The notes beneath the pieces are model-generated. The model saw only the letters and a program-made list of their open reading frames with translations. It searched no databases and had not been told where the DNA came from. Of a stretch of DNA of 64,000 bases, positions 11,201-50,518 are shown piece after piece. Position 1 is the first letter of the stretch. Each line of letters begins with the position of its first letter. This DNA is from Paenibacillus qinlingensis (GTDB lineage: Bacteria; Bacillota; Bacilli; Paenibacillales; NBRC-103111): positions 1 through 64,000 of the forward strand of contig NZ_JABMKY010000031.1 in assembly GCF_013204845.1 (NCBI RefSeq), written 5' to 3'. The position numbers and the translations under genes are program-made.

Positions 11201-12053
11201 ATTGACTATCTTGAATATGGATACTGTTTTTCCCACCACCTTCAATCCGAGTAACGCCATCCACTTGAACCTTGTCCAGATAGGCTTCGCCATCCCCCAC
11301 CTCTTTGGAAATCACGAGATCACCCAAAATATGCATATTCATTAGCGTTACTCCTGGAGCACTAATGATAACATCCTTGGGTTCGATTTTTAATGTATCC
11401 TCCCCATAGTTGCCTGATTTATCATACACCACCCTACTCCAGGATAACGCTCTCTTCAGAGACACTAGGCTTTCGGCGCGGGTTATCGAACGGTTGGGGT
11501 GAAACATCTCCTCGATATCTAGACTCATGATTCCGTTATCAAGCAGATTGCTGATTGCCGCCTGCCCCCACGAAGCAATACTGTCCGAATCCTTGCCAAG
11601 CTTAACTGCCTTAGCATCCTTCGACTCTAGCCTTAAGATCCGCGAAATCATGACCGACGTTTCCTGCCGGGTTATAGACTGGTCTGAACGAAAGCTGTTA
11701 TCGCTGAATCCGTCAATATAGCCTCGTGCAACTGCCTTCTGTACTTCCCGGTATACCCAATCGGTCGAATTAACATCGGTAAAAGTAATGGGCTGTGTTT
11801 CAGAAAATTGAAATGCCCGGTTTACAAGAGCTACGAACTCACCTCTCGTCACATTCCGCTCTGGCTGAAAGGTTTGGTCCGGGTACCCAGTTACGACCCC
11901 CTGCTCCAGCCATTCCTCTATATCGGCCTCGGCCCAATGTCCCTTAATATCGGTGATATTCGTTGCTGCACTTGCATTTAGCATCCCAACCGGTATGTAC
12001 ATCAATATAATGATTAATAAACAAAGCCATTTCGCCTGGTATCTGTTAAACAA
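8223..12053 (-). CDS. SLH-domain cell-surface protein with repeated extracellular modules
   Basis: 1276 residues. TTG start at 12053 with GGAAGG 5 nt upstream. Signal peptide (LCLLIIILMYIPVGMLNASAA), then three S-layer homology domains (ITDIKGHWAEADIEEWLEQG and two more, to about residue 200) that bind pyruvylated secondary cell-wall polymer. Next comes a beta-rich region rich in IHIQDSQLG-like strands, a Gly-rich linker (GGGGFPSGGGGGPSGGGG, about 435), a carboxypeptidase-regulatory-like fold (about 560-640: GKFVFTNVLPGTYIANI) and a run of ~85-residue Ig/cadherin-like modules, each opening with a PTEV-type turn. Not an enzyme as far as I can see; probably a structural or adhesive wall protein. 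It is a single-gene unit. Confidence 0.85.
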   Translation of the reverse strand: MFNRYQAKWLCLLIIILMYIPVGMLNASAATNITDIKGHWAEADIEEWLEQGVVTGYPDQTFQPERNVTRGEFVALVNRAFQFSETQPITFTDVNSTDWVYREVQKAVARGYIDGFSDNSFRSDQSITRQETSVMISRILRLESKDAKAVKLGKDSDSIASWGQAAISNLLDNGIMSLDIEEMFHPNRSITRAESLVSLKRALSWSRVVYDKSGNYGEDTLKIEPKDVIISAPGVTLMNMHILGDLVISKEVGDGEAYLDKVQVDGVTRIEGGGKNSIHIQDSQLGTLSVNRLKQAVRIVAEGITVIRDAQVLSSAILEEHEIKGEGFIQLTILPEPSGGQSRSISVSGDFQSIRLNADIQELQILTGNIENLYIAEELKNPTIVLNKDASIQTLDAKSKSKISGEGTIHHVNLSDDAKGSVLPEAKPSFPIFGGGGFPSGGGGGPSGGGGNASTAVTSITATSGTIKVLFNSSLVSLPSATDFVVTRKRNNGASENVNILSVHFMERQNEVLLTVPPVEYGDVEQSVIYSISYKNVSTVSSPAFTVSKRNVTVSGALYYWKYGAPKALPLYNVYVNLTGIQNTEGSYESVTDQRGKFVFTNVLPGTYIANIYLGPIRYYTRDFVVEAGKAFTLPDLIIEEEGPEASVTNIVYSDLGYISGSVMNLDEPYSVKVELENGTLLQGPSNKYEMFFGYNLFDYNPGLVLNHEDKLFVTMFTNTWNSDRFEVNVMERPKTKSPTGINVIYEDTKYIRGTVEDWSNAITVVKEDGTVIGNSHNNLGNSFEVYLTGNEPLPVGESLSVYVQAEGKRKSDPVRITVVAPTEVTATPSLDKELLEGSTVITGKAAAESDIIVKRSDGFILGQDRSGPTTNSGRFNVNLSSATIVGETLYVYADGYEKRISAPLTVQVGARPVTPAPVLAGEIFSDFTSIRASVTPIPNSWITVYLKNGNGTVIKEIIAAADGNVTFWYPELASNTQYQLTAKAAEMKESVPVFFTPKEPTEVTPVPTVSETVYADAGYRVHGMTEPNATIRLYYENGTPAGLSQADSMGQFYFIVPIDPPVLPGDKLLLRADLEGKLMSEPLVVTTIALVEKSSQPVIQGGGLYGYTSRLSGTATPGTLIQAYHEDGRQIYTGVYSDATTGNWSILLVYTLLQAGDRIYVTADEVGKLPSDPVYLTVQPSPKSVTPTVTSSTVTSQSTMIQGTYSGARIVNSQITAIFLVNEQGNVDGFTWLESNGTFTMSLSPEKLVPGDTIKIYAREGDKGLSDPVVINING

Positions 12054-19444: not shown

Positions 19445-19453
19445 TCTGTACTA

Positions 19454-19466
19454 AGGTGAGGGGAGT
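19454..19466. other. Predicted attL of the 30.7-kb island
   Basis: AGGTGAGGGGAGT, identical and in the same orientation to 50160-50172 inside the 3' end of ssrA. The large serine recombinase gene lies at the other end, as usual. Joining the two sites gives the recombinase frame a natural stop six codons on (see findings), which supports this as the true partner. Flank caveat: the bases outside the core here do not restore a good tmRNA acceptor stem. Confidence 0.7.
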
Positions 19467-19608
19467 ATTGAAATGTCCATCTAACTTACTAACGAAGCCT
19501 ACTCACCGATGACTACCCTAGCGGTACATTTCAATGCCGTGCTCCCTACGCTCACGCTCCAGTCCGCGCGGGCGAACCCTATAGGGGTTCAACTCCCTGC
19601 TCACACCA
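19455..19608. other. Strongly structured segment at the island's left end
   Basis: Nested inverted repeats: GGTGAGGGGAGT (19455-19466, overlapping attL) with ACTCCCTGCTCACACC (about 19592-19607); inside it ATTGAAATGT with ACATTTCAAT; then a hairpin GAACCC-TATA-GGGGTTC. It lies between two terminator-like hairpins and holds no reading frame. It may be a structured RNA or the arm-binding region of attP. Unassigned. Confidence 0.45.
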
Positions 19609-19622
19609 CCATAAAAACAAAA

Positions 19623-19650
19623 GACACCCGAAAGGGTGTCTCTTGTTTTG
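19623..19650. terminator. Bidirectional terminator
   Basis: GACACCC-GAAA-GGGTGTC with TCTTGTTTT on the plus side and TTTTGTTTTTA on the minus side. It ends the leftward ParB-like gene and stands where other cassettes carry the hairpin half of the 125-bp repeat. Confidence 0.8.
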
Positions 19651-19725
19651 TATGGAGGTGAGCCGTGGCTTGGTAAATCCACAATTCGCCGCCGCGTGAT
19701 GCTGAGAATTTTTGGGGAGGTGGCT
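19645..19725 (+). repeat. Cassette-border repeat R1 (second half)
   Basis: Carries GAGCCGTGGC, AATCCACAATTCGCCGCCGC and TTGGGGAGGTGGC of the repeat family, but its 5' hairpin half is replaced by the terminator just before it. Six bases later is the stop of the ParB-like gene. Confidence 0.75.
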
Positions 19726-19730
19726 TGAGA

Positions 19731-20723
19731 TTATCGATTTCGGAATATATAGCGATAGCCAGTATCGGTACTCTCACGTAGAATTTCCAGTTCCGTTTCA
19801 AAAGATGACTGATCAGATTTCTTATTATCCTTCCAAATCCAAAGTACGGCCTTATTTATTTCACCTACAGCTTTTGCTAATTGCTTCTTTTGAAGTGGAC
19901 TTACCAAAAGCTCTAAATCGGGATGTAAATAGTCCTCAAGCTTCCCCATATTATTTAATATATTCGACATCCATGTATTAAATTTGTCTTGGTGATCAGA
20001 TGGCTTTGTACGCATCAATTCACTGAGCACGACTAATTCAGCTTCCACTTTAGTAAATGTAGCTTGTTGCAAGGCTTCTTCAAGGGCACGTACTCTTTGA
20101 TGTTCATTAAGACGTCCATAAACGCTACTACTAACAAGCCTCTTCACAGCCGTAGCATGGTCACCTGTAAGTTTTCTTGATAGTAAGCTTTTATACAATC
20201 TTTGCTTGAAATCCACATCAATGTTAAGTGCATATATTACTTCAAGCATATCTTGGCTGCCACGAACCTTTGCAACTTCCTCCCTTACATTATCTGGAAC
20301 CTCACTTCCAGGTTTGTACTTCCTAATTCTCCTCTTATCTCTTCTTAGTTCTTTTGCAAGGTCACCATCAGACATGCCACTTTCTTTCAATATGTCCTCA
20401 ATTAGAATTTGAAAATCCACACCAGGCATAGGTTTTATATCAAGATGCATTTGAAGCCGCTCTTTATTTCGTTCTAAACGCGAAGTAAGTCCTCTCACTA
20501 CTTTTACTTCGATTGGCTCATTAATCCGAACATTCTTCCAAGCCTCTAAGCGGCGATCTCCATTAATCAGATAATAATTGTTGTTTTCATCAGGGCCTTC
20601 TACATCAAGTGGCACTTTTAATCCATGGTTTCTGATATCCTGTTCAAGTGAGATTGTATCAAGGTTAATCCGTCTTCTAATGTCAATAAGTATATTTTTA
20701 ACAGGTAATATCAATTTCGCCAC
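19731..20723 (-). CDS. ParB-like nuclease-domain protein
   Basis: 330 residues from GTG 20723. Residues about 5-95 form a ParB/Srx-like N-terminal domain with the signature INGDRRLEAWK; residues about 105-165 look like the central HTH of ParB proteins (SGMSDGDLAKELRRDKRRIR). The rest is helical. There is no ParA partner beside it, so chromosome- or plasmid-type segregation is unlikely; stand-alone ParB-like proteins occur as regulators or DNA-acting defence components (CTP- or nuclease-dependent function cannot be told). It occupies the first cassette together with the divergent 75-aa gene. Confidence 0.75.
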   Translation of the reverse strand: MAKLILPVKNILIDIRRRINLDTISLEQDIRNHGLKVPLDVEGPDENNNYYLINGDRRLEAWKNVRINEPIEVKVVRGLTSRLERNKERLQMHLDIKPMPGVDFQILIEDILKESGMSDGDLAKELRRDKRRIRKYKPGSEVPDNVREEVAKVRGSQDMLEVIYALNIDVDFKQRLYKSLLSRKLTGDHATAVKRLVSSSVYGRLNEHQRVRALEEALQQATFTKVEAELVVLSELMRTKPSDHQDKFNTWMSNILNNMGKLEDYLHPDLELLVSPLQKKQLAKAVGEINKAVLWIWKDNKKSDQSSFETELEILRESTDTGYRYIFRNR

Positions 20724-28656: not shown

Positions 28657-29400
28657 TTATTGCAATCCTTTTCGTCTTCTATCTAAGTCAGCTGGTATTT
28701 CGTATAAATAACGAAGTAACTCTCTAACGAATTTTTGGAGTTCCTTTACAGCATCGACCGTGATATTCTCTACGGGGTCATAGTGTGCTCCTATATTACC
28801 GGCAAGTCTTACTTCCTTCACCCATTCAGTGAGTGATGGATGTAATGCTCCATTATCTGTTAGTTTTTGGAGACGTTTATGAAGCGTTCCTTCAGATTCA
28901 CCTTTATCAACAGTAATGGCCTCGAGTGTGCGCCTAAGCATCACGACGGAAGCGCGGGGACAGTCGGCAAATAATGCTCGAACACCTTCACTAAATATAT
29001 CTGCAATTTCACTCGGTATATCTTGTGAGAGATTACTCTCTGGTAGGGGCCACCAGTATATTCCTCTATAAGTGACAGTTCCACCACTTGATTGTTTATG
29101 TTTAGGCAAGTCTCCAACCCATTCTTCCTCAATAACCACAACACCTTGATTACAGTGACGGCAAATCAATGATATTACACGATCACTATGCGTTGCCATA
29201 CGTTCCCCGTTAGGTCTTTGTAATACCCCTCCATCAAATGTAACCGGAAGCGAGCCAGCTGTTTCAAAACTAGATTGTTTTCCACAACGAGGACATAACC
29301 CCCTTGGTCGGTAAGAATCAGGAAGCCCTTCGTGGGGAATTGGCAATTCCTCGTTCCGTTTGCCTATTTCCTTACCTTCCTTTTGGCGCCAAAATAACAA
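28657..29400 (-). CDS. DUF4145-domain protein with zinc ribbon
   Basis: 247 residues from TTG 29400, which has GGGGGG 7 nt upstream. Residues about 35-105 carry CPRCG and CRHC, a zinc ribbon; the C-terminal half is a DUF4145 (HEPN-like) domain (SEGVRALFADCPRASVVMLR, then KEVRLAGNIGAHYDP, then LLRYLYEIPADL). DUF4145 domains are recurrent in restriction and other defence loci. Alone in its cassette between R6 and R7. Effector or accessory role is inferred from family and context only. Confidence 0.8.
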   Translation of the reverse strand: MLFWRQKEGKEIGKRNEELPIPHEGLPDSYRPRGLCPRCGKQSSFETAGSLPVTFDGGVLQRPNGERMATHSDRVISLICRHCNQGVVVIEEEWVGDLPKHKQSSGGTVTYRGIYWWPLPESNLSQDIPSEIADIFSEGVRALFADCPRASVVMLRRTLEAITVDKGESEGTLHKRLQKLTDNGALHPSLTEWVKEVRLAGNIGAHYDPVENITVDAVKELQKFVRELLRYLYEIPADLDRRRKGLQ

Positions 29401-29644: not shown

Positions 29645-31453
29645 TTACTCCTCGTTCGAATCTTCGACAGCTACGCCAGCCTCTGCCAAAGGTGTAACAA
29701 GTTGAAGTAATTCTTCTTCATTACTCCAAGTAATACACCCTTTTGGTACTTCGTTCTTTATATCCAGCAAAGATTGAAGTACTGTTTCAACATGAGTGAA
29801 GGCTTCATTGTCTAGCATTAGATTTGTTAATGCGTTGTAGGGCTTATCTGACTTGATGGATTTTCCAAAGTAGGCCAACTCAAAGTTAGGTAACGATGCC
29901 AAGTGTCGAACCTTATTTGGATGGGTTGCTTGCTTAACAACCTCAAATATACTTGTATTGTGGGGCCAAGCTGGATTCTTCCTATCACCCTTATTAGTCC
30001 TAGGTAAGTCTGTATCGTGTAATACTGAGTAACCGCTCCCAAAGTGATTCAAGATTTTGCACAAAGAAACGATTGTAGCTTTTCCTCTAGCCCTGATGAT
30101 ATGAATATTTCTATACTTCTCTGGCGCTGTCGACATTATATATTTAAAAGCTGTGTACTCTGTATCGCCTTCAACTATAACGGTCTTTCCACCAAAAAAG
30201 AATTCGGCAACATGCGGATCAAAAATATTCAATAATTTCAATCTTTCACGATCTTCATGATCCAGTTGAACTTTTTCGGGACGGAATACAGTGGTTCCAA
30301 ATATTTCACCCTGTTCCGACCTTTCGACCCTTACTATTGTTGTATTATTTCTCGACAAATCGATAAATGCAGGGGAATGAGTAGTAACCATAACCTGCCA
30401 ATTCCCCTTTTTGGGTAGATCATACAAAACTCTACATGCTTCACGGACAGCATTCGGATGCAAACAAAGTTCAGGCTCGTCCAACAACAAAACATGCGGC
30501 CGCTCGCCTGCCGACTTTTTTCCTCCATTGCTCTGAACAAGTAGCCTTAGCGCAGACCAGAGAAGTGTTCTTCGTGCCCCGCTACCTTGCTTATCAATTG
30601 CACTTTGATACCCCATTCCAGGCCCCATCAATAACCTAGCTGATGATTTGAATAGTGTGACATCATTTTCAATATCTTCATCCGCCCTGGGGTCGAATTT
30701 AACCACATACCCTGGGAATATGTCTGCAATTAATGAGGATAACTCTGTTTCAATAGAACTAATTTCTTCCTTTGATTCAGCAAAAATCTTCTTTCGTAGA
30801 TCACCTATTTGCAGTAGTAACTTTGAGTAATCGGAGAGTTCCTCTCCAGTAGCAGACTGAACCCCTTTAATACGATCTTTAATTATTGCATTAAGCAGAT
30901 CAAGAACTTGTTTCTCCTGTTCCTGAGGCTGAGCAAATGCTTCAACCATATGAGGTTGAGGTCGTTTTGTCTGTGCGACTCCAGGAGCCCCCCAAGGCAC
31001 TTGATCGTCCCATTCATTCTTTTCTGTATCAAACCCTTGCCTTTTGGGAGCAGCGTTCGCTGATGACCAAGTCCATCTCTCTTTTACTAGAGTCTTTCCT
31101 TCCTCAACTTGAACCCACCGTTTGGCTGGAGTAGTGTCACCATTGACAATTGTATGTAGCTCTATTTGCGGTAGCTCATGAATATTAATTTTCCCATTAG
31201 GAAAGTCACTTTCACTTAATTTGCAATTATTGGAGCCATGATTCATGACAATCTCGTACGCCTTTAGAATAGAGCTTTTTCCTGCATTATTTGGACCAAC
31301 CAGAACCACAATATCATCTAAATCAATTGTAACTGGGCTATTTCCGATACATCGGAAATTTTTAATTATCATTCTTCTCAACTTAGGTTCACTTGAATCA
31401 TACCATTTTGATAAGTCCATTCCTGTATCTATCGCGGCACCCTTTCTTGCCAT
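29645..31453 (-). CDS. OLD-family ATP-dependent endonuclease
   Basis: 602 residues from ATG 31453 (GGAG 8-10 nt upstream); the longer frame is AT-rich upstream sequence. An ABC-type ATPase with Walker A LVGPNNAGKSS (51-61), signature region and Walker B LLLDEPELCLHP, then a TOPRIM domain beginning VIVEGDTEYTAFKYI (about 430). This is the OLD/GajA layout. No UvrD-like GajB gene is beside it, so it is not a standard Gabija pair. It is divergent from the methyltransferase gene and lies in the same cassette as a restriction-modification system. Expected role: nuclease against foreign DNA, regulated by nucleotide. Confidence 0.85.
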   Translation of the reverse strand: MARKGAAIDTGMDLSKWYDSSEPKLRRMIIKNFRCIGNSPVTIDLDDIVVLVGPNNAGKSSILKAYEIVMNHGSNNCKLSESDFPNGKINIHELPQIELHTIVNGDTTPAKRWVQVEEGKTLVKERWTWSSANAAPKRQGFDTEKNEWDDQVPWGAPGVAQTKRPQPHMVEAFAQPQEQEKQVLDLLNAIIKDRIKGVQSATGEELSDYSKLLLQIGDLRKKIFAESKEEISSIETELSSLIADIFPGYVVKFDPRADEDIENDVTLFKSSARLLMGPGMGYQSAIDKQGSGARRTLLWSALRLLVQSNGGKKSAGERPHVLLLDEPELCLHPNAVREACRVLYDLPKKGNWQVMVTTHSPAFIDLSRNNTTIVRVERSEQGEIFGTTVFRPEKVQLDHEDRERLKLLNIFDPHVAEFFFGGKTVIVEGDTEYTAFKYIMSTAPEKYRNIHIIRARGKATIVSLCKILNHFGSGYSVLHDTDLPRTNKGDRKNPAWPHNTSIFEVVKQATHPNKVRHLASLPNFELAYFGKSIKSDKPYNALTNLMLDNEAFTHVETVLQSLLDIKNEVPKGCITWSNEEELLQLVTPLAEAGVAVEDSNEE

Positions 31454-31758
31454 ATACATCACTCCAATTCCATATATTTCAATCAACTTAAAATGTACCA
31501 CGACCACAAATAGCGAACAAGCGTTTGATTTTAGTTTGACATTTTCATATTTTAGATGTATTATAAATTCAACGTGAAGCACACGTAAGTAAGGGCGCCC
31601 TTATTTGCGATGTGCTTTTCTTTTCTTTGCGTTAACAATTGAATTGCACCTCATATTTCCATTTGCTTCTTTAACGTAGACTGAACTATCGACGGTAAGT
31701 TAAAATAATATAATTGGAATTGCGCATTTTAAGAGTGTGCATTAGGGGGATCGTAGTT

Positions 31759-33267
31759 TTGTCACAAATTAATACTCTCGCTGAGATCAACCGTGTCAGA
31801 CAAGAAGTCGGGGCAATCAAAGAAAAGGCTCTAAAATCAGAACTAGGGCAGTTCTTCACCAACACAAATGTTGCTAGTTTCATGGCCAATTTATTCGATT
31901 CAAATGAACCTCATATAAAGTTACTTGATCCTGGGGCTGGAATTGGGATTCTAACGGCAGCTTACATTGAACGTTTGTGTAAGAAAAAACGTAAACCCAT
32001 TAGTATTGAGGTTGTAGCCGTTGAAATTGACGAAAGCATTCTCCCTTACTTAACAGACACCCTTGAGTTCTGTTCAAATCTCTGCCAAAAAGCAGGAATT
32101 ACTTTCTCTTCTCAAATAGTTAACAGAGATTTCCTTGAGTTTGGGGTAGAATCTATTGGCAATCCTGGTACTGCAAATTTTAATGTAGTTATAATGAATC
32201 CTCCCTATAAGAAAATTTCAACAGATTCTATATCTAGAAATCTATTAAGGCAAATCGGTGTTGAAACAACTAATCTTTATACAGGATTTGTTGCCGTTGC
32301 AAAGCGGCTGATGGTAAATTTCGGACAGTTAGTTGCCATTACGCCGCGTAGTTTTTGTAACGGTACCTACTACATTAAATTCAGATCAGATTTTCTCTCA
32401 GATATGTCTTTCAAGAAGATTCACTTATTTGAATCGAGAAAAGAAGCATTCAGTGAAGACGATGTTTTACAAGAAAATATTATCTATCTTGCAGAGAAGA
32501 ACAAAAAATATCGAAAGGTCAGTATCACATCATCAGTTAGTTCTATGATTCCTTCTGTATCATACAAACTTGACACGGATCGGCTTGTTCATCCCGATGA
32601 TGGAGAGTTATTCATTAGGTTAGCAAAGGATCAGGCAGAAGTTGAACTCAAAACAGCTCTTGAAGGCGTTTCCTCATCACTTGAGCAACTTAACATAAAA
32701 GTATCAACTGGAAGAGTAGTTGATTTTCGAACAAAAGAAAACCTTAAATTCGAAGTGACAGAAGATAGTATCCCTCTAATCTATCCACTACATTTTTTAG
32801 ATGGGTTCGTTAGATGGCCTGTAGTCACTGCGAAGAAAGCAAATGGTATCGTATTAAACAAAGAAACGGAAAAGCTGCTGCTTCCACGTGGCAACTATGT
32901 CCTAGTTAGAAGATTTTCCTCAAAGGAAGAACCAAAAAGAATTAATTCCGCAATCTACGATGGTACAGATTTCAAAGCAACCTTTGTTGGCTTTGAAAAT
33001 CACGTCAATTACTTCCACATTAACAATATGGGAATCCCAATTGAATTGGCAAAAGGACTATCACTATACTTAAGTTCAACAGTGGTGGATCGCTATTTCC
33101 GTCAATTCAATGGTCTTACACAGGTTAATGTAAGTGATTTAAAGAGCTTACCCTATCCAACTCACGATGAACTTTTAGAGATGGGTAAGCAATTCGGAGA
33201 GATTTTTCCAAATCAGACTCAAGTAGATTTGATTATCCTACAAGTTTTAGGAATTCAAGCTAATTAA
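31759..33267 (+). CDS. N6-adenine DNA methyltransferase of a BsuBI/PstI-type system
   Basis: 502 residues from TTG 31759, which has AGGGGG 9 nt upstream; this length matches M.BsuBI and M.PstI. SAM-binding motif LLDPGAGIGIL (about 52-62) and catalytic NPPY (about 146) are clear, followed by a target-recognition region. It should methylate adenine in the site cut by the convergent endonuclease, by family expectation CTGCAG. The gene is divergent from the OLD nuclease and its stop is 37 bp from that of the endonuclease. Confidence 0.88.
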   Translation: MSQINTLAEINRVRQEVGAIKEKALKSELGQFFTNTNVASFMANLFDSNEPHIKLLDPGAGIGILTAAYIERLCKKKRKPISIEVVAVEIDESILPYLTDTLEFCSNLCQKAGITFSSQIVNRDFLEFGVESIGNPGTANFNVVIMNPPYKKISTDSISRNLLRQIGVETTNLYTGFVAVAKRLMVNFGQLVAITPRSFCNGTYYIKFRSDFLSDMSFKKIHLFESRKEAFSEDDVLQENIIYLAEKNKKYRKVSITSSVSSMIPSVSYKLDTDRLVHPDDGELFIRLAKDQAEVELKTALEGVSSSLEQLNIKVSTGRVVDFRTKENLKFEVTEDSIPLIYPLHFLDGFVRWPVVTAKKANGIVLNKETEKLLLPRGNYVLVRRFSSKEEPKRINSAIYDGTDFKATFVGFENHVNYFHINNMGIPIELAKGLSLYLSSTVVDRYFRQFNGLTQVNVSDLKSLPYPTHDELLEMGKQFGEIFPNQTQVDLIILQVLGIQAN

Positions 33268-33273
33268 ATTATC

Positions 33274-33303
33274 AAGCTACCGGCTAGGTAGCTTTTTTCG
33301 TTT
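33274..33303. terminator. Shared terminator between methyltransferase and endonuclease
   Basis: AAGCTACC-GGCTA-GGTAGCTT followed by a T run on the plus strand, in the 37-bp gap between the convergent genes. Confidence 0.8.
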
Positions 33304-33304
33304 T

Positions 33305-34387
33305 TTAAACCTTGAGTAAGTCATGTAAGGTTACCTTGTGAGCTGAATCAGTATCAATAAGATGAATTATTCTATTAGGCTCATCAGCAAACCAAACAAA
33401 TGATCCCCATGCTAAACTACCTTGCACTTTACGATATGCCGAGTCTGATCGAGATGCAAAAACTGTTACAAATGCACAATCATCTGGATTAATAAAGGGA
33501 AAGCTTTCTCTGGCAAGATCCAATAGTTCCCTCATACGCGCACCAGATATTGGTCCATCGGTGTGCACAATCTCAATAAAAACTAGTTTAAATCGATTCT
33601 CTGCCGTTTCTGCAATAATCAGATCAGGTAAAGTCTTCTTAGGATCCAGAGATAATCCGATGTTTCCAAATAATTTAGAAAATTGAGGGTGAAATTTCAC
33701 CTTAGAGTCACTTATAAGCAGAACTTCAGGTTTCACCAAAAAATTTCTCGCAAACGTTTCGACAGCTTCTTTAGAAAGGACAGAACTTAAACCTGAGGGT
33801 AACGAATGTCTAAAGCCCCCCAGCTCTACCGTTATCACGCTTTGTCTTTCTAGCTCTCTCAGCCCTTGTAAAATAAGAGCTCCTTTGTGTAAATGTTTTT
33901 CTCTCCAGTTGCTTATCTCTTCCTCCAACTCATCTCCTATTAATTTAGGATTCATCAACTCAGCGAAATCTCTGGCTAGAAAATATCTAGGTTTAGAGGA
34001 TGTTGGGGGTAAACCTTCTAGTTCCCCGACTGCCCCCAACTGTTTTAGAGTAGCAATGGTATCATCTCTTATAGATTCTCGAGTGTTCTCACTGTACCAT
34101 CTTCCTTCAACACTTGGCTTCTTTGGACGCTGCATTATATTAACCCAATCCATACGTTCTGACCGTAGCAACTTTGTTGCTTGTTCATCATTCATGACAG
34201 TTATTGTCGATGGACGAACCTCGATGCCATATCCCTCAATTGCAAAAGCATAAAGCATGACAAATACAGTACGTGCTGCAACGATGTTACGACTGTAAAT
34301 AGCATCTTCAACATTCTCTGGAATTAGCAGTTGAAGCCTCTCCTTAATAATCTCAACTTCCGGCAAACTTGTTTCAAACCAATCCAA
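33305..34387 (-). CDS. BsuBI/PstI-type restriction endonuclease
   Basis: 360 residues. The C-terminal domain has the BsuBI/PstI endonuclease pattern: DLIIAETAENRFKLVFIEIV (catalytic acidic residues), then TDGPISGARMRELLDLA and FVTVFASRSDSAYRKV. R.BsuBI and R.PstI are slightly over 310 residues, so this protein has a somewhat longer N-terminal helical part. ATG 34387 is preceded by AGGAGG. It forms a type II restriction-modification pair with the convergent methyltransferase; cleavage at CTGCAG is the family expectation, not something the sequence proves. Confidence 0.88.
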   Translation of the reverse strand: MDWFETSLPEVEIIKERLQLLIPENVEDAIYSRNIVAARTVFVMLYAFAIEGYGIEVRPSTITVMNDEQATKLLRSERMDWVNIMQRPKKPSVEGRWYSENTRESIRDDTIATLKQLGAVGELEGLPPTSSKPRYFLARDFAELMNPKLIGDELEEEISNWREKHLHKGALILQGLRELERQSVITVELGGFRHSLPSGLSSVLSKEAVETFARNFLVKPEVLLISDSKVKFHPQFSKLFGNIGLSLDPKKTLPDLIIAETAENRFKLVFIEIVHTDGPISGARMRELLDLARESFPFINPDDCAFVTVFASRSDSAYRKVQGSLAWGSFVWFADEPNRIIHLIDTDSAHKVTLHDLLKV

Positions 34388-42898: not shown

Positions 42899-43669
42899 TT
42901 GCAAATCTTCCGATTACTAAATGAAAAATACTGCCATACCATTGATTTCTACCAATTGCTCGATAAGAAGAAAGCCGTTCTCAAATGTTGCGAAATAAGG
43001 TGCTACTCCGATAAGTTATCTGCCTCGAAGTTTGGAGAATTCCTTTCCGAGCTTCTGCCCAAACCTTCCCATCCCATATCTTCGGCATTTAGTACACGCG
43101 TTGGCTCGATGTTCTACTCAGCTATCTGGGATGTTGCAAATCCAGTTCAAGTGGAGGATGAACAAGCAATGCTTCCTTGGTACCATTTATTTTCGGCAGC
43201 ATGCTCTCATTCGAGTCTCCACAATACTGATTTTGAAATAATACTTCATGCGTTTGATAAAAGTGATGTGCTAATGAGAACACCGTACTTCTTGCATCCC
43301 CTCCCAATTTTCCATAACACATGGGGAGCGCAGCAAGCATCCATCACTGCTAAAGTGGATTCGTTTGAAGGCATTCTTTTACGAGACGTGCCCCGACACA
43401 TGCGGTGCATCTGGATCGATAACATGATTGAGGGGATTCGCACAAGGGAACCCCTTCCCTCTTCAATTACAGTTGAGGAAGACCATCTTGAAGCAACTTG
43501 GCACTTTAGGGAGGATACCCTCGCAAACGAAATGTTGAATAGCGTATTCTTGCATCCTGGTCAAGATTGCTCAAATGACTTTGGTTCCTACTACAATCTT
43601 TATGAAAAAGAAGAATTCCTATATGAGATAGATAAGTTGCAGTTAAAGGTAGGTGATTTGGATGACTAA
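42899..43669 (+). CDS. Island protein of unknown function, 256 aa
   Basis: TTG 42899 has AAAGGAG 10 nt upstream. Soluble, Cys/His-containing alpha/beta protein (CCEIRCYSDKL near 30; HLFSAACSHSSLHNTDFEII near 95). It overlaps the Prim-Pol gene start and so belongs to the replication operon; it could be an accessory replication protein, but there is no family evidence. Confidence 0.55.
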   Translation: MQIFRLLNEKYCHTIDFYQLLDKKKAVLKCCEIRCYSDKLSASKFGEFLSELLPKPSHPISSAFSTRVGSMFYSAIWDVANPVQVEDEQAMLPWYHLFSAACSHSSLHNTDFEIILHAFDKSDVLMRTPYFLHPLPIFHNTWGAQQASITAKVDSFEGILLRDVPRHMRCIWIDNMIEGIRTREPLPSSITVEEDHLEATWHFREDTLANEMLNSVFLHPGQDCSNDFGSYYNLYEKEEFLYEIDKLQLKVGDLDD

Positions 43670-44243
43670 CAATGGATCTGATCCCTACAGCAACGTACCT
43701 GATGCAATGAAAGCCTATGCCTCGCTAGGCTGGTCTGTCATTCCACTGTGCTCATGCGATCATAGTGGGATGAGTGAAAACCATCGAAATAACTGCTCTA
43801 AACCAGGGAAAGCACCGCTCATCAAAGACTGGACGCAAAGGTCTGTACCTTCTGACGAAATCATCGACGAATGGGTGCGGCAAAGGCCTAACTTGAACGT
43901 CGGACTTGTTCTTGGTTCCTCTTCTGGCATCGTCGCCATTGACGTTGACGGTGAATTCGGTGAGGAGTTGCTTCAGAAGTGGAGCAACGGCGATCTTCCC
44001 GAAACATGTGAATTTACGACACCAGGGGGTGGGAGGCGGCTAATGTATGCCACTTCCTTCGGCGTAAAAGCCAAGAAATACGTGGAAATCCACCCGAGCA
44101 AACCACATGAGGAATGCGCCTTGCTCGGCGATGGCCAGCAAACAGTTCTTCCCCCTTCTCGTCACACCAACGGAGGCCTTTACAAATGGAAAGGAGGACG
44201 TAGCCCTTGGGAATTAATCTACCATCCCAGCCAAAATGGATGA
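43662..44243 (+). CDS. Prim-Pol domain protein (bifunctional DNA primase/polymerase N-terminal type)
   Basis: 193 residues from ATG 43662, overlapping the previous stop. The fold is that of the Prim-Pol domain: AYASLGWSVIPL at the start, GKAPLIKDWTQ, NVGLVLGSSSGIVAIDVDGE (catalytic acidic residues about 88-93) and TTPGGGRRLMYAT. Together with the helicase gene that overlaps it by ATGA it makes a split version of the primase-helicase proteins that replicate plasmids, phages and satellites. Likely function: initiation of replication of the excised island. Confidence 0.85.
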   Translation: MTNNGSDPYSNVPDAMKAYASLGWSVIPLCSCDHSGMSENHRNNCSKPGKAPLIKDWTQRSVPSDEIIDEWVRQRPNLNVGLVLGSSSGIVAIDVDGEFGEELLQKWSNGDLPETCEFTTPGGGRRLMYATSFGVKAKKYVEIHPSKPHEECALLGDGQQTVLPPSRHTNGGLYKWKGGRSPWELIYHPSQNG

Positions 44244-46333
44244 TGAAACGAATGACACTGAGCCCAGTAATAGAATCAGTATCGACAGAAATTCAAAAAA
44301 GTATTGGAGTAGCTCCTATCCAACAAGCATCAACTTGTGTAATAGAAGCTAGTGATCCTGACTTAGTTAAGCTAACAAAAAAGTGCCAAAAAATCCGCAA
44401 TCACACTAATTGCCAACTGGTTGGTAGTGGCTGCGACGAGCAAACGTGGCATTTAATCGTGTCTATGCTCGCCCGATCGGGACATCCCGAAGCCGCTCTC
44501 ACCTTTTCCAGGCTTAGCGCCAAACACGACTCACACAGCGAGGAGCGCATCCAAAAGATAAAAGCTGAAGGGCAAAGTGCGTCCTACGGCCCAACCCGTT
44601 GCACGACCTTCGGCTGCAGTCTGGAGCAGATTGGACGCTGTCATGGAAAGGTACTGCGTAACTCGGAAAACGACGTTGTGAACAGTCCCGCAAGACTTCT
44701 GATGCCAGATCAAACAAGCGAGTCTCTGCAGGTGGCACAGAGTGCTCTCGAACTGCTGGAATCTGGGGACCACGGAGCCCACCTAGAGCCACAAGTCATG
44801 CAAGCATTTCACAGGCTGAAGAATCAGTCCCCCGCCGACTACGCTCGCCTAGAACAGCGGCTTCGCTCCGCCAAAGTGCCGATGAGGACCTTCAATCAGG
44901 CACTCAAGGAGTCCCATAACAAGTACGTCCAGACACAGTCACTCGGCGGTGCGCTTGCTGAAATGGGTTTTTACCTTGATGCGAGTGGAACGCCAAACGG
45001 CATGAACCAGAACAAATACGCCCGTTACGTGCTTAGCCAGCTTGCTCTCGGGGTAGCGGAAGGTGAGCGCTTTTACCTTTACGAAAGCGGCGTTTGGAGA
45101 GAATTGGATGACCTAGCCGTCAAGCGAAAGCTTCGAGATTTTCTCCACGATCTAGTACCCGACTTTTGGACGGAGAAACTGGAGGAACAGTACGTAGGGG
45201 CGCTTCTGCGCGAGGCCGAGTACCTGGATCAGATAGACGGACAACGCGACTACATCAACCTTCAGAACGGGATGCTCTCACTCGACAGCTTCGAACTGCT
45301 GCCGCATGATCGCCGCTACCATTCGACCATTCAAATCCGAATACCCTACACGCCTGACGCGAAATGCCCGCAGTTTTTGCAGTTCCTGAATGAAGTCTTT
45401 CTTGGCGACCAGGAGCTTGTCTGCGTCGCGCAGGAGATGTTCGGCTACTGCCTGACCGCCGAGACTAGGGCGGAAAAATGCTTCATCCTCTTCGGAGAGG
45501 GTAGCAATGGTAAAAGCGTCCTTCTTAGCGTGCTGAAGCTGCTTTGCGGTAGGGAGAACACGAGCAGCGTACCCCTTGCCGAACTGGAAAACGCGTTCGC
45601 TAGGCATGAGATCGTAGGAAAAACATTGAACCTCGCAGCGGAAAACGAGGTGGACGAAAAAGGATTGAATACGCAGTATTTCAAGGCTATCGTTTCCGGC
45701 GATCCCATTCATGTAGACGTAAAGTACGGTAAGGGCTTCATGTACGAGCCTGTCTGCAAGTTAGTCTTCGCCACGAACAGGCTGCCGTACAGCAGGGATA
45801 AGTCTCACGCATTCCCGCGCAGGCTGGTCATCTTTCCGTTCCGTGCAAAATTCAGCAGTAAGACGGCTGACAAACATCTCCGCGAAAAGCTAGAAGCGGA
45901 ACTACCCGGCATACTGAACTTCGCCTTGGAAGGCCTCAAGCGACTGAGAGATCAAAACTACGTGTTTAGCCATTCTCAGGCTGCTGAACAGATGCTGACC
46001 GAGTACCGCGCGACCATCAACCCCATGCTTTCATTTGTTAGCGACTGTATTAAGCCGACCCCAGGCGCGGGAAGGATTGGCCGGACTCGGTTGAGAGACG
46101 TGTTCCGCAGCTGGTGCAGGGAGAATGGCCACACCGGACTTGCAGAGATGACCACCAAAAAGTTTTGGGATGCTTTCCGCAAGATTCTGGACGAAGAGCG
46201 GATCGAATTCGACGAATCCAAAAGCAATGGCGTCGATGGTTTTGTTGGGATTTCCTTGAAGAAAGCCGGACCACAGAAAACAAAACAAATGGGTTCCTCC
46301 CCTTTTGAGGATGAAGATGATGACCAAGAGTGA
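44240..46333 (+). CDS. D5/P4-type superfamily 3 helicase
   Basis: 697 residues from ATG 44240, in an ATGA overlap with the Prim-Pol gene. The first ~290 residues are linker-like (cysteines at about 60-135 could bind zinc). A D5_N-type region follows (about 290-400: ALGVAEGERFYLYESGVWRE), then the SF3 helicase core with Walker A FGEGSNGKS (about 418) and the segment KLVFATNRLPYSRDKSHAFP, and a winged-helix end. SF3 helicases of this type unwind replication origins on mobile elements. No origin can be pinned down here. Confidence 0.88.
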   Translation: MMKRMTLSPVIESVSTEIQKSIGVAPIQQASTCVIEASDPDLVKLTKKCQKIRNHTNCQLVGSGCDEQTWHLIVSMLARSGHPEAALTFSRLSAKHDSHSEERIQKIKAEGQSASYGPTRCTTFGCSLEQIGRCHGKVLRNSENDVVNSPARLLMPDQTSESLQVAQSALELLESGDHGAHLEPQVMQAFHRLKNQSPADYARLEQRLRSAKVPMRTFNQALKESHNKYVQTQSLGGALAEMGFYLDASGTPNGMNQNKYARYVLSQLALGVAEGERFYLYESGVWRELDDLAVKRKLRDFLHDLVPDFWTEKLEEQYVGALLREAEYLDQIDGQRDYINLQNGMLSLDSFELLPHDRRYHSTIQIRIPYTPDAKCPQFLQFLNEVFLGDQELVCVAQEMFGYCLTAETRAEKCFILFGEGSNGKSVLLSVLKLLCGRENTSSVPLAELENAFARHEIVGKTLNLAAENEVDEKGLNTQYFKAIVSGDPIHVDVKYGKGFMYEPVCKLVFATNRLPYSRDKSHAFPRRLVIFPFRAKFSSKTADKHLREKLEAELPGILNFALEGLKRLRDQNYVFSHSQAAEQMLTEYRATINPMLSFVSDCIKPTPGAGRIGRTRLRDVFRSWCRENGHTGLAEMTTKKFWDAFRKILDEERIEFDESKSNGVDGFVGISLKKAGPQKTKQMGSSPFEDEDDDQE

Positions 46334-46787
46334 CATCCCCAACCACGCTGGGGTCAATCGCTACCCAAGCCATGCTCGGAGGGACGTGTCCCAAGTTTTT
46401 TCGCTGACAGTGGCGGAAAGTGGAGGAGGTTTCGGACCTTTCGCTAAACAGAATTTTTTGAGGAGAGGGAAAGAGAAAAAAAGGAGCTGAAAGAAAGAGT
46501 TCCCCTCGTCTCCCCCACTCTGCCCCACTCAAACAGCACAAAATTTTCGATGCCACGCCCGTCGCTCCGAGCCTCGCAACCCGAGCAAGGAGTGTGGGAC
46601 CGGTCACTCCAAAAGCGGGACTCTTAAAGTTCAAAAGGCCCCAAAGAGTTGCATAGCCTCGAAACAGGGGCAGGCCTTGCCACGGAGAACATGCGAAGGT
46701 GACAGCCGGAACGAAAACAATCTTAAAGCTTATATTATTCCTTAGAATACATAATTTTCAATAAAAATTCTAAGGAGGATTAGTCCT
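46334..46787. other. 454-bp non-coding stretch after the helicase gene
   Basis: Purine-rich left part (GAGGAGAGGGAAAGAG) is followed by a C-rich part (CCCCTCGTCTCCCCCACTC). No gene seen. CCTTAGAAT (46740-46748) can pair with ATTCTAAGG (46767-46775), the latter overlapping the AAGGAGG of the next gene, so translation of that gene may be hairpin-controlled. Position next to the helicase makes it a candidate origin region; no clear iterons. Confidence 0.35.
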
Positions 46788-47219
46788 TTGCTAACCATTT
46801 TAAATCATGTTCATATTAAACAGCTTCTTGAAAGCAGCATACTGCCCGCTGCCTCTTTACACTACATCATTACCGAATTCGAGACATTAAAAGCTATGCT
46901 TCATCATGATGATTGCATGCCATTTTCGTTTTCTCTAGATGCACACGGTTATCTATTAGTCTTGCTGGAGCCACGAGATAACTTCCACTGTCTGCCGATC
47001 GCCAACCCTAGATCGAGTCAAATTGATCTGCTAGAGTCTAATCCTGAGTACGTGGAACTTACCACTCTACCCGACGAAATTTCTATGTACCGAATCTGCT
47101 TCATGTTCGACAATGAAAGCTATCTATTCATGTACATCTTAAATGATTCCTTAGACATGAAACTGGTGCAATGGCTGGCGGAACGGGCCGGACTCTCGTC
47201 GGCGGAGGAATTACAATGA
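46788..47219 (+). CDS. Island protein of unknown function, 143 aa
   Basis: TTG 46788 has AAGGAGG 9 nt upstream, within a possible hairpin. Soluble acidic alpha/beta protein (FSLDAHGYLLVLLEPRDNFH in the middle). It ends in an ATGA overlap with the RadC-like gene, so the two are co-translated and may work together. Family not recognised. Confidence 0.6.
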   Translation: MLTILNHVHIKQLLESSILPAASLHYIITEFETLKAMLHHDDCMPFSFSLDAHGYLLVLLEPRDNFHCLPIANPRSSQIDLLESNPEYVELTTLPDEISMYRICFMFDNESYLFMYILNDSLDMKLVQWLAERAGLSSAEELQ

Positions 47220-47683
47220 GTGACCAATTAAAAAAGAATGCCGCCAAAAGAGTTGAAGTCATCTCCCTGCGTATGGTACGAGAGAAATCGTCACTACTCT
47301 ACCCGAACCGAGTGATTCGCTCACCTAAAGATGCCGCAGCCCTGTTTCAACAGTTCATCGGCGATTGCGACAGGGAATCCTTCTGCATTCTTTGCCTGAA
47401 CACTAAGAACGAGCCTACTGCCATTCATCAGGTATCAAGCGGGTCATTGAACGCCTCAATCGTCCATCCGAGGGAAACCTTTAAACTAGCGATTCTCGCT
47501 AATTCTGCCTCTATCATTGCTTGCCATAACCATCCATCCGGTCAGCCAGAGCCAAGTCCAGAGGATATACAACTGACTGAGAGGCTTCGGGATAGCGGCA
47601 GTCTGCTTGGAATTAAGCTTTTAGACCACCTGATCCTCGGTGATGTGACATTTTGTTCGATGAAGGAAAGGGGGCTGATGTAA
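47216..47683 (+). CDS. RadC-like JAB/MPN-domain protein
   Basis: 155 residues from ATG 47216. The metalloprotein motif HNHPSGQPEPSPED (about 102-115) is the JAMM signature of the RadC/YkfG group, preceded by the FCILCLNTKNEP strand. The HTH half of chromosomal RadC is missing, so this is the short, mobile-element form. Such genes are common on integrative elements and genomic islands; their biochemical role is unsettled. Confidence 0.85.
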   Translation: MSDQLKKNAAKRVEVISLRMVREKSSLLYPNRVIRSPKDAAALFQQFIGDCDRESFCILCLNTKNEPTAIHQVSSGSLNASIVHPRETFKLAILANSASIIACHNHPSGQPEPSPEDIQLTERLRDSGSLLGIKLLDHLILGDVTFCSMKERGLM

Positions 47684-48119: not shown

Positions 48120-48559
48120 ATGACCAAAAGAGCAGCCATCTATATCCGTGTTGGAAAGCAATCTCAGGTTGAAGAAGCTATCAACCAGCAAAAAGCCATC
48201 TGCGAGCAGTACGCGGAATCCGCCCAACTAAAAGTCGTGAAAATTTACAGCGACGTTTCTCATTCCACTCCTTTGGATCAAAGGCCAATGTTCCAAAAGC
48301 TCCTCTCGGATAGCAAGAAAGGGCTCTTGGATGTAATAATCGTCCAACGTGAAGACCGCATCGGACGCGATAAATTAGATGTAGCGATTCATAAGCGGCA
48401 TCTATTGAACAATGGTGTAGAACTTGTGATAGCTAAAAATTTGATGAAACATCCGCAGAAGAACATTTCCAAGAATCTTTCGATTCATTTCTCGGAACTC
48501 TCATACAGTCTTATAATCAATCGTTAAAAGAGATGAACATGAATCCTAGTCAGCAATGA
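48120..48559 (+). pseudogene. Short serine recombinase-like gene without catalytic serine, frameshifted end
   Basis: ATG 48120 has AAAGGAG upstream. The first ~120 residues follow a resolvase N-terminal domain (RAAIYIRVGKQSQ, then INQQKAICEQYAE, then VIIVQREDRIGRDK), but the catalytic Ser is Gly12 (YIRVG instead of YIRVS). Near 48477 the frame slips; a one-base shift gives ESFDSFLGTLIQSYNQSLKE to TGA 48559, a natural resolvase-like end, whereas the unshifted frame stops at 48527. There is no recombinase or zinc-ribbon domain, so it cannot integrate DNA itself. It may be an accessory or directionality partner, or a relic. Confidence 0.6.
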
Positions 48560-48633: not shown

Positions 48634-50280
48634 ATGACCAACAGACGCGCAGCCGCATACGTACGCTTTTCCAGCGACAACCAACGGGATGAATCTATTG
48701 ACGCTCAAATTCGTGCCATCAAGGATTATTGCAACCGAAACGGCTACCAACTCGTCAGAACCTACGAGGATAGAGCTAAGACAGCTACTAGCGACAGAAG
48801 ACCCGGCTTCCTTGAAATGATTAAGGATTGTCAAAACGGTTTATATGACTCTATTATCGTCCATAAACTTGATCGTTTCAGCCGAGATAAATACGATAGC
48901 GCGCATTACAAAAGAATTTTAAAGAAAAACAGAATAAGGCTACTTAGTGTTATCGAGAATCTAGATGATTCGCCTGAAAGCTACATGATGGAAACAATGT
49001 TGGAGGGTATGGCCGGTTACTACTCAATGAACCTCGCACGCGAAGTAATGAAGGGGATGAAGGAAACAGCCCATCAGTGCAAGCATACTGGCGGTCTACC
49101 TCCAATAGGTTACTCAGTAGATTCGGTTTCCAAGAAATATATCATCAACGAAGACGAGAGAGGCATTGTCGAAATGGTTTTCTCGATGTTTCTCGCAGGC
49201 CATGGCTACAATCAGATCATTCGGGAACTTGCTGATCGAGGTTATAAATCTCGGTACGGGAAACCTATAAGTAAGGGTACATTAGGGACCATTCTCCGAA
49301 ATGAGAAATACACCGGAACATATATTTTCAACCTTACGGACGGAAAAGATTACGCGGGAAAACGCAACAGTAATCGACAGAAGAGTGGTGAGGATGTAAT
49401 TCGTGTGGAAGGTGGCATGCCTGAACTCATCACAAAGGAAGTTTTCCAGCAAGTGCAGGAAAAAATGAATGGTAACAAAAAGCAACCTGGCGCTTATAAG
49501 GCAAAGGAAATGTACTTGCTTAGTGGTCTGATTGTCTGCGGTGAATGCCTACAATCTGTAGGCACCCAATATGCCATGATGGGCAATACCAAATTCAGTG
49601 GTCGGAACAAACTCAAGTACGTTACCTATCGCTGCGGCAATCGTGATCGAACGAAGGAGTGCAAGAACCCCGAGCTCCGCCGTGAATACATCGAAAGTTA
49701 CGTCATTTCCGAATTACAGGAGAAGATGTTCAACGAGGAGGCTATTCCAGTGCTTGTGAAACAGCTTAACGACTACCAAAAGTCCAAAGAATCGAATGTG
49801 AAAGACGAAAAGGAGCGACTGGCTAAGAGCCTTGAGGGCATCGAGCGTCAGATTACAAACATCGTCAATGCCATCGCGAGCGGCACTTCCAACGCCACGT
49901 TGTTAGGCAAATTGGATGAGTTGGATGGGCAAAAGCTACAATTGGATCAGAAACTGCTTGAGGCCTCAGCAGTAACAGAAAAAGCAGCCATCACAGAGGA
50001 ATCTCTGCGACAACTGCTTTCTCAATTCGAGGACCACGTCGCTAAGCGAGACATTCCTGAGATCAAGAAGTTCATCGCTAGCTATGTGGAAAAGGTAATC
50101 GTCTACGAAAAGCATGTAGAAGTTATCTTTAAGGTCCCCGTTGTGGATTTGGCATATGGAGGTGAGGGGAGTCGAACCCCTGTCCGAAAATATTGCCACA
50201 CAGGCATCTACGGGTGTAGTCACAGTTTTGATGTCACCCGAGCATCGCCCCGTAACCGGCTATGCGTTGGGTCAGCCTGA
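48634..50280 (+). CDS. Large serine recombinase (island integrase)
   Basis: 548 residues in the integrated state. Resolvase catalytic domain 1-150 (AAAYVRFSSDNQ, Ser13; RFSRDKYDSAHYK), recombinase domain about 160-270 (GTILRNEKYTGTYIFN), zinc ribbon about 285-350 (LIVCGECLQS, then CGNRDRTKEC) and a coiled coil about 370-460. ATG 48634 follows GAGAGGAG. The frame crosses attR at 50160 and its last ~36 residues are antisense ssrA; joined to attL instead, it would end after 518 residues. Large serine recombinases need no host factor to integrate; excision needs a directionality factor, which I cannot identify with certainty. Confidence 0.9.
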   Translation: MTNRRAAAYVRFSSDNQRDESIDAQIRAIKDYCNRNGYQLVRTYEDRAKTATSDRRPGFLEMIKDCQNGLYDSIIVHKLDRFSRDKYDSAHYKRILKKNRIRLLSVIENLDDSPESYMMETMLEGMAGYYSMNLAREVMKGMKETAHQCKHTGGLPPIGYSVDSVSKKYIINEDERGIVEMVFSMFLAGHGYNQIIRELADRGYKSRYGKPISKGTLGTILRNEKYTGTYIFNLTDGKDYAGKRNSNRQKSGEDVIRVEGGMPELITKEVFQQVQEKMNGNKKQPGAYKAKEMYLLSGLIVCGECLQSVGTQYAMMGNTKFSGRNKLKYVTYRCGNRDRTKECKNPELRREYIESYVISELQEKMFNEEAIPVLVKQLNDYQKSKESNVKDEKERLAKSLEGIERQITNIVNAIASGTSNATLLGKLDELDGQKLQLDQKLLEASAVTEKAAITEESLRQLLSQFEDHVAKRDIPEIKKFIASYVEKVIVYEKHVEVIFKVPVVDLAYGGEGSRTPVRKYCHTGIYGCSHSFDVTRASPRNRLCVGSA

Positions 50281-50518
50281 TTGTCTTCCTACGTCCGACC
50301 CCAGGCGGAGACCAAACGTCGTATCCCACTATAGTTGAGCCCCTATCCCAGTCACATGGGCGATGCTGAGTAGAAGCACGCTAACAGGTTATTAAGCTGC
50401 TACAGCGTAGTTGTTTTGTGTTTTGCCATTTAATAGGCTTTAGCGTTTTATAGTGGACGCGGCCCCACTACCCGCAACCCGCGCTCAAACTATCCCCGTC
50501 GAATCCAAGAACACCCCC
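50157..50518 (-). ncRNA. ssrA: tmRNA (ssrA)
   Basis: Leftward. The 5' end GGGGGTG (50518-50512) pairs with CACCTCC at 50164-50158; the T-arm GGACAGGGGTTCGACTCCCC and the 5' GGATTCGAC motif are standard. The tag frame GGC AAA ACA ... TAA TAA (50428-50390) encodes GKTQNNYAVAA after the charged Ala. About 362 nt. CCA is not encoded: the bases after the discriminator A are TATG, because the island's integration site is here. It works with SmpB (encoded upstream) to rescue stalled ribosomes. Confidence 0.95.
50160..50172. other. Predicted attR in the 3' end of ssrA
   Basis: AGGTGAGGGGAGT, same as attL at 19454-19466. It covers the T-stem and acceptor-stem 3' strands of ssrA. Confidence 0.75.

Follow-up and report, generated by a model that had tools for sequence, protein, structure and literature searches.

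A 64,000-nucleotide stretch of the Paenibacillus qinlingensis genome (RefSeq assembly GCF_013204845.1, contig NZ_JABMKY010000031.1, positions 1 to 64,000 of the forward strand; hereafter the window) was analysed with respect to a 30.5-kb island inserted at the ssrA gene (transfer-messenger RNA, tmRNA) and the large serine recombinase (LSR) that this island encodes. The recombinase carries attP in its own last codons, and integration probably swaps a selected tail, encoded by the circular form, for a host-derived one, attenuating or re-biasing the enzyme. Comparison of island ends among relatives showed that the circular tail behaves as selected coding sequence, while the integrated tail simply follows from the sequence of the host RNA gene. 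A recombinase clade whose C-terminus differs between the circular and the integrated state, the circular version being selected, suggests self-regulation by gene rearrangement. The original prediction for this locus, made from the window sequence, held that integration rewrites the C-terminus of the recombinase and that the host-derived tail exists only after integration. Both points were borne out, and the rewriting is kept in about 20 relatives. It missed the more important half, however: the tail lost on integration is, judged by the comparison of relatives, a conserved and selected protein segment.

Two C-termini and the attachment sites

The integrated recombinase gene spans positions 48634-50280 of the plus strand and encodes 548 amino acids, as originally predicted. 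Resolvase, Recombinase, and zinc-ribbon (Zn_ribbon_recom) domains were identified in that order (Pfam PF00239, PF07508, PF13408), and the best NCBIfam model was CcrB with 174 of 900 bits, i.e., below the equivalog cut-off; by its domains, the protein belongs with the large serine recombinases, and it is assigned to a putative CcrB/DsiB type. Residues 1-511 (48634-50166), which include these domains, are common to both forms. Thereafter the frame crosses attR into antisense ssrA, where codons 512-548 (50167-50280, plus strand, host DNA) specify a tail of 37 residues, not the predicted 36 or so, reading GSRTPVRKYCHTG...VGSA and a stop. When attL and attR are joined, residue 511 (E) is instead followed by the 21-codon tail PWLGKSTIRRRVMLRIFGEVA and a TGA at 19726-19728 (tail and stop at 19663-19728, plus strand), and the circular gene, reading through attP, encodes a predicted protein of 532 amino acids. 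The circle-only tail is basic at first and then hydrophobic. According to an alignment to SPbeta YokA, the canonical LSR fold is apparently complete by about residue 505, which makes the tail an added segment.

The island is bounded by ssrA (50154-50518, minus strand), which the recombinase gene adjoins, and by a direct repeat of the ssrA 3′ end. The 12-bp repeat TATGGAGGTGAG is common to attR (50155-50166) and attL (19651-19662), with the crossover dinucleotide GA, inferred from the symmetry of the arms, at 50164-50165 and 19660-19661, respectively; the crossover falls at the end of the T-stem 3′ strand of ssrA. On the chromosomal side of the 19651 repeat lie the ssrA 3′ end and terminator (CTCACCTCCATACAAAACAAGAGACACCC/GGGTGTC), and one relative (G021, L032) has an intact ssrA with the same order of 3′ end and terminator, followed by the same structured-RNA cassette. 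The island-side arm, GAATTGTGGATTTnnnnAGCCACGGCT/CACCTCCA, is also found at distal island ends in G004, G008, G010, G023, G027, G091, and other genomes, and all related islands terminate at the arm seen here from 19663 onward. Joining attL to attR predicts an attP reading ...TTGTGGATTTGGCATATGGAGGTGAGCCGTGGCTTGGTAAATCCACAA..., in which the left arm TTGTGGATTT (50141-50150, plus strand, within the recombinase open reading frame, ORF) and the right arm AAATCCACAA (19675-19684, plus strand) form a perfect 10-bp inverted repeat with 28 nt between its halves, centred exactly on the GA. Perfect inverted repeats of 9-13 bp, symmetric about the same GA centre, were found in nine of the 11 related islands tested, and their sequences differ between islands with both arms changing together (TTGTGGATTT, TTGTGGTTT, TACAGGGTTTTTA). 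Integration separates the arms by about 30.5 kb here and by as much as about 38 kb in relatives, so they must be read together on the circle.

The placing of attL is where the original prediction failed. A 13-bp repeat (50160-50172 and 19454-19466) had been taken as the att pair, giving a circular form of 518 residues that ends in IEMSI. The repeat is exact and exceeds the 12-bp repeat at 19651 by one base, and the arithmetic of the join is right (GGEGSIEMSI). The 19454 copy, however, marks the 3′ end of a chromosomal RNA cassette: positions 19454-19650 comprise this cassette and a terminator, a unit lying directly downstream of ssrA in island-free relatives. Joining at 19454 also yields no attP palindrome, and arm matches amount to 7/22 there against 13/22 at 19651, the best among core-like sites, although this score is not unique window-wide (38 of about 50,000 positions score as high). 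The junctions in related islands, whose inspection had been proposed, confirm that tail rewriting recurs, but their distal arms match 19663 onward rather than 19454. An attL at 19454 is thus very improbable, and the claim that the reading frame independently supports it did not hold. The two placings predict different circle-junction signatures, GAGGGGAGTATTGAAATG with attL at 19454 and GAGCCGTGGCTTGG otherwise.

Assembled junctions of recombinase gene, attP, and tail were found in tandem islands of two relatives, where the gene reads ...GGEPWLGKSTIRRRVMILMFWDVA and a stop (G010, position 11311 of the oriented array) or ...GGEPWHGKSTIRRVMMLRMFGEVA and a stop (G178, position 28910). Both recombinase genes are damaged upstream, but the junctions themselves are physical. 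Tandem accretion can restore the full tail because the arm of the neighbouring island supplies its codons.

Conservation of the circle-only tail and its interpretation

In all 13 distal arms selected from the lineage of the window island (lineage 1), the joined frame continues for exactly 21 codons before reaching the same stop codon, and the G178 arm provides a 14th tail of this length. Across the tail region of the 13 arms, the recombinase frame contains no stops, whereas the two remaining sense frames contain 19 and 8. Synonymous change is in excess (pS about 0.46-0.47, pN, nonsynonymous, about 0.25), and for most pairs of arms, pN and pS agree with the values for the final 100 codons of the recombinase body; for the window island and G004, for example, the values are 0.37/0.06 in the tail and 0.24/0.11 in the body. 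Mean nucleotide identity is 0.69 across the tail and 0.29 in the 60 nt past the stop. The fixed length, the body-like pN and pS, and the end of similarity at the stop codon together indicate that the selected C-terminus is the circular one, which integration removes. The 13 arms were picked for showing no obvious decay, and the contrast with remnant islands that lack an intact recombinase, whose arms have broken frames, is descriptive and not blind; neither the codon-position bias described below nor the abrupt loss of similarity at the stop codon depends on how the arms were chosen.

A second lineage, about 40% identical (G217, G317, G165), has mutually similar circle tails of 13 residues (LTLIKTLYVTYKL, VTLLKTLQATYRR, LTLLKTLHATYRK). 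In a Moorella prophage record (OR602863), an LSR with 41% identity likewise runs into antisense ssrA; it has 539 amino acids when integrated and 536 when the ends are joined, and the joined ends contain a 9-bp inverted repeat (GGGATATGA/TCATATCCC). Among all intact relatives found integrated at ssrA, none has its own stop before the core. The integrated form ends in GSRTPVRR in most other genera of the order because antisense ssrA supplies a TAA there, and GI is also seen; this TAA has been lost in the genus of the window, resulting in the 37-residue tail.

Serine integrases are directional, which is usually explained by a separate directionality factor. For the present island, we propose that the circular form would be the fully equipped enzyme that performs integration. 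Recombination of attP with attB at the ssrA 3′ end leaves the tail codons at attL, 30.5 kb away, and the gene then ends in antisense ssrA, giving 548 residues here and fewer in genera where ssrA provides an early stop. Enzyme made afterwards would be attenuated or re-biased, which would help the island to remain stable and limit further attP x attB reactions, and tandem accretion can bring back a full-length copy. An effect of the tail on activity or directionality is plausible; the tail may act, for example, in synapsis, in DNA or coiled-coil contact, or in stability. A more specific version, which we regard as possible but tentative, is a one-way switch: the circle-only tail would be needed for efficient attP x attB recombination, and the enzyme lacking it could not reintegrate and would at most excise the island with a partner, perhaps the DsiA-like protein described below. 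The direction of recombination would then depend both on the DNA state of the recombinase gene and on a separate factor. In either case, annotators and integrase prospectors should be cautious, as the island protein, in its annotated form, ends in a tail from the host and is probably not the enzyme that naturally carries out integration.

Several points weigh against a regulatory role of the tail. With the LSR fold apparently finished by about residue 505, the enzyme might do without the tail, and selection on the tail does not tell which step requires it. The tail is short, and each pairwise test on its own gives modest significance (P 0.001 to 0.15). Moreover, the 13 arms are not fully independent: two stem from tandem junctions, two adjoin damaged recombinase genes, and those of G151, G257, and G154 are near-identical. 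The broken frames of remnant arms fit decay, yet they mean that not every copy is selected. Finally, the circle of the window island was deduced from the sequence of its ends, with no circular DNA, reads, or protein seen; searches for free circular or plasmid copies returned only distant LSRs from plasmids and phages and none from viral contigs, and one scan of genome contigs gave one partial relative. Two candidates for free copies were rejected: an Aneurinibacillus plasmid match, annotated as a gene of 492 aa, has a stop of its own, and the best match among phages, from Moorella, proved to be a prophage record with the same architecture.

The simplest alternative is a neutral overlap, in which attP came to lie at the 3′ end of the gene by chance, the tail extends past the folded enzyme, and the two forms perform the same. 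The position of the tail beyond the region alignable to solved LSRs fits this account, as do the persistence of integrated islands in many genomes and the tolerance of integrated tails that vary with the host and differ in length as much as GSRTPVRR, GI, and 37 residues. Chance overlap, on the other hand, does not sit well with a constant tail length, pN and pS like those of the body, conservation ending at the circular stop codon, and a second lineage that conserves a different tail, and we consider it unlikely. Less probable still is that the tail DNA has been kept as part of attP or as an accessory binding site rather than as protein. The first tail codons do belong to the attP arm and show no third-position excess; in codons 10-21, past the arm, differences by codon position number 319, 218, and 506, and the conserved block stops at the stop codon.

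The tail could also act as a degron, in which case the stable form would be the integrated enzyme. Most lineage-1 tails end in -VA or -AA, and the BPs phages offer a precedent, with attP in the repressor ORF and an integrase that has a C-terminal proteolysis signal (PMC4557955). An acidic residue often precedes -VA (GEVA), however, three lineage-1 tails end in -AV or -AG, and the lineage-2 endings (RR, RK, or KL) are not degron-like, leaving this reading improbable, though somewhat less so than that of a retained binding site. Loss of a selected tail upon integration is the preferred and more probable interpretation.

The ssrA locus and neighbouring genes

Integration shifts the ssrA terminator 30.5 kb away; its hairpin now lies at attL (19622-19641, minus strand), and no terminator was found when one was looked for at attR. 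Without it, ssrA transcription may read antisense through the recombinase gene and may further damp it. The 3′ strand of the acceptor stem of ssrA is supplied by the island at attR, and the segment before TCCA (CACC, CGCC, CGGC, or CGTC) varies by genus at attR cores. This segment appears matched to the ssrA type of the host, and the islands may be adapted to the tmRNA acceptor stem of their hosts. ssrA is an integration hotspot in the order, with tandem islands or remnants and several recombinase 3′ ends and arms per genome (e.g., G008, G010, G022, and G178; L045-L048, L054-L056, L081, L116-L118). In G191 and G328 (L067, L070), a terminator-like hairpin that immediately precedes the core also falls within the open recombinase frame (KQKPQPHAVVVSHGGGEGI and a stop); this one sequence appears to be coding sequence, attP arm, and ssrA terminator at once.

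Upstream of the recombinase, a gene at 48120-48527 (plus strand) encodes a small DsiA-like protein of 135 amino acids with a Resolvase domain. It was also found upstream of the recombinase in three relatives and not seen in most others. By eye, the position of the catalytic serine is Gly here and G or E across this protein and two relatives (YIRVG, YILVE, YICIE), so the protein is probably inactive, which suggests a dead paralogue serving as regulator or partner. At the opposite end of the island, a weakly ParB-like protein is encoded at 19731-20723 (minus strand); in the circle, its gene is convergent with the recombinase gene, the stops being 2 bp apart. Among the cargo at 29645-34387 are an OLD-like AAA/TOPRIM protein and, next to a BsuBI/PstI-type restriction enzyme, an Eco57I-like methylase; a Prim-Pol and D5-type helicase pair and a RadC gene are located at 43653-47683. 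ARAGORN detected no tRNA inside the island.

The chromosomal structured-RNA cassette beside attL (19450-19610, minus strand), which contains the 19454-19466 repeat, is situated next to ssrA in many island-free relatives. It is 163 nt long here, and family members measure about 160-185 nt (L136, L138-L144). Rfam 15 gave no match at the gathering score and weak sub-threshold matches at a relaxed E-value. A covariance model of the cassette identified it in 81 of 198 genomes of the order (E <= 1e-4), frequently as tandem copies that repeat about every 200 nt. At the nine loci examined, the cassette follows ssrA or tRNA-Ala(GGC), except for one locus where no tRNA was found, and most cassettes terminate in a duplicate of the adjoining gene's 3′ end (CTCCCCTCACCTCCA or TCCCCCTAGGCTCCA). 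Both sides have changed in 19 of 26 base pairs (32 sequences; 0/500 shuffles), in an alignment that was fitted to the structure of the model, so that the counts lean towards that structure. The family looks like tiny elements of tRNA-gene (tDNA) 3′ ends.

Relation to known systems

In SSV-type archaeal tyrosine integrases, which belong to a different enzyme family, attP also lies within the integrase gene, and integration splits the gene without adding a new tail. Closer in enzyme type is the SPbeta recombinase YokA/SprA (PDB 9dxh, NC_001884), a member of the same superfamily whose gene (41-1678) has the att core (1-16) close to its 3′ end. There, however, the stop codon precedes the core, and the protein is unchanged by integration. 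In the mycobacteriophage BPs, attP lies in the repressor ORF, and integration trims 33 residues carrying an ssrA-like proteolysis tag (PMC4557955). The present island shares with this integration-dependent immunity an attP within an ORF and the replacement of the C-terminus of a regulatory protein on integration, but the ORF exchanged here encodes a serine recombinase, not a repressor, and the endings -VA or -AA, at most suggestive of a proteolysis tag, occur in most lineage-1 tails and not in lineage 2.

The nearest counterparts are the Dehalococcoides DsiB/DsiA islands, which likewise target ssrA with a direct repeat of its 3′ end, encode a CcrB-family LSR whose stop lies only outside the integrated element, occur in tandem, and carry a second, smaller gene for a serine recombinase. 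Their integration module also contains ParB, mom, and a tRNA-like locus, of which the present island has a weak ParB match. It differs from them in that this ParB-like gene lies at its other extremity once integrated and in that its DsiA-like protein has no catalytic serine. McMurdie et al. (2011, PMC3146451) described the overlap of dsiB with the att site, noted that its integrated C-termini diverge in alignments, and suggested that full function of dsiB may require the circular state or an adjacent island. The overlap of gene and att site with a missing stop is already known; in the literature, which was covered in part, we found no paper reporting a conserved circle-only tail for a serine recombinase. 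Whereas the reported C-termini diverge, the joined circular tails are conserved, and this conservation across island sequences is new comparative support for the suggestion made in 2011 for dsiB.
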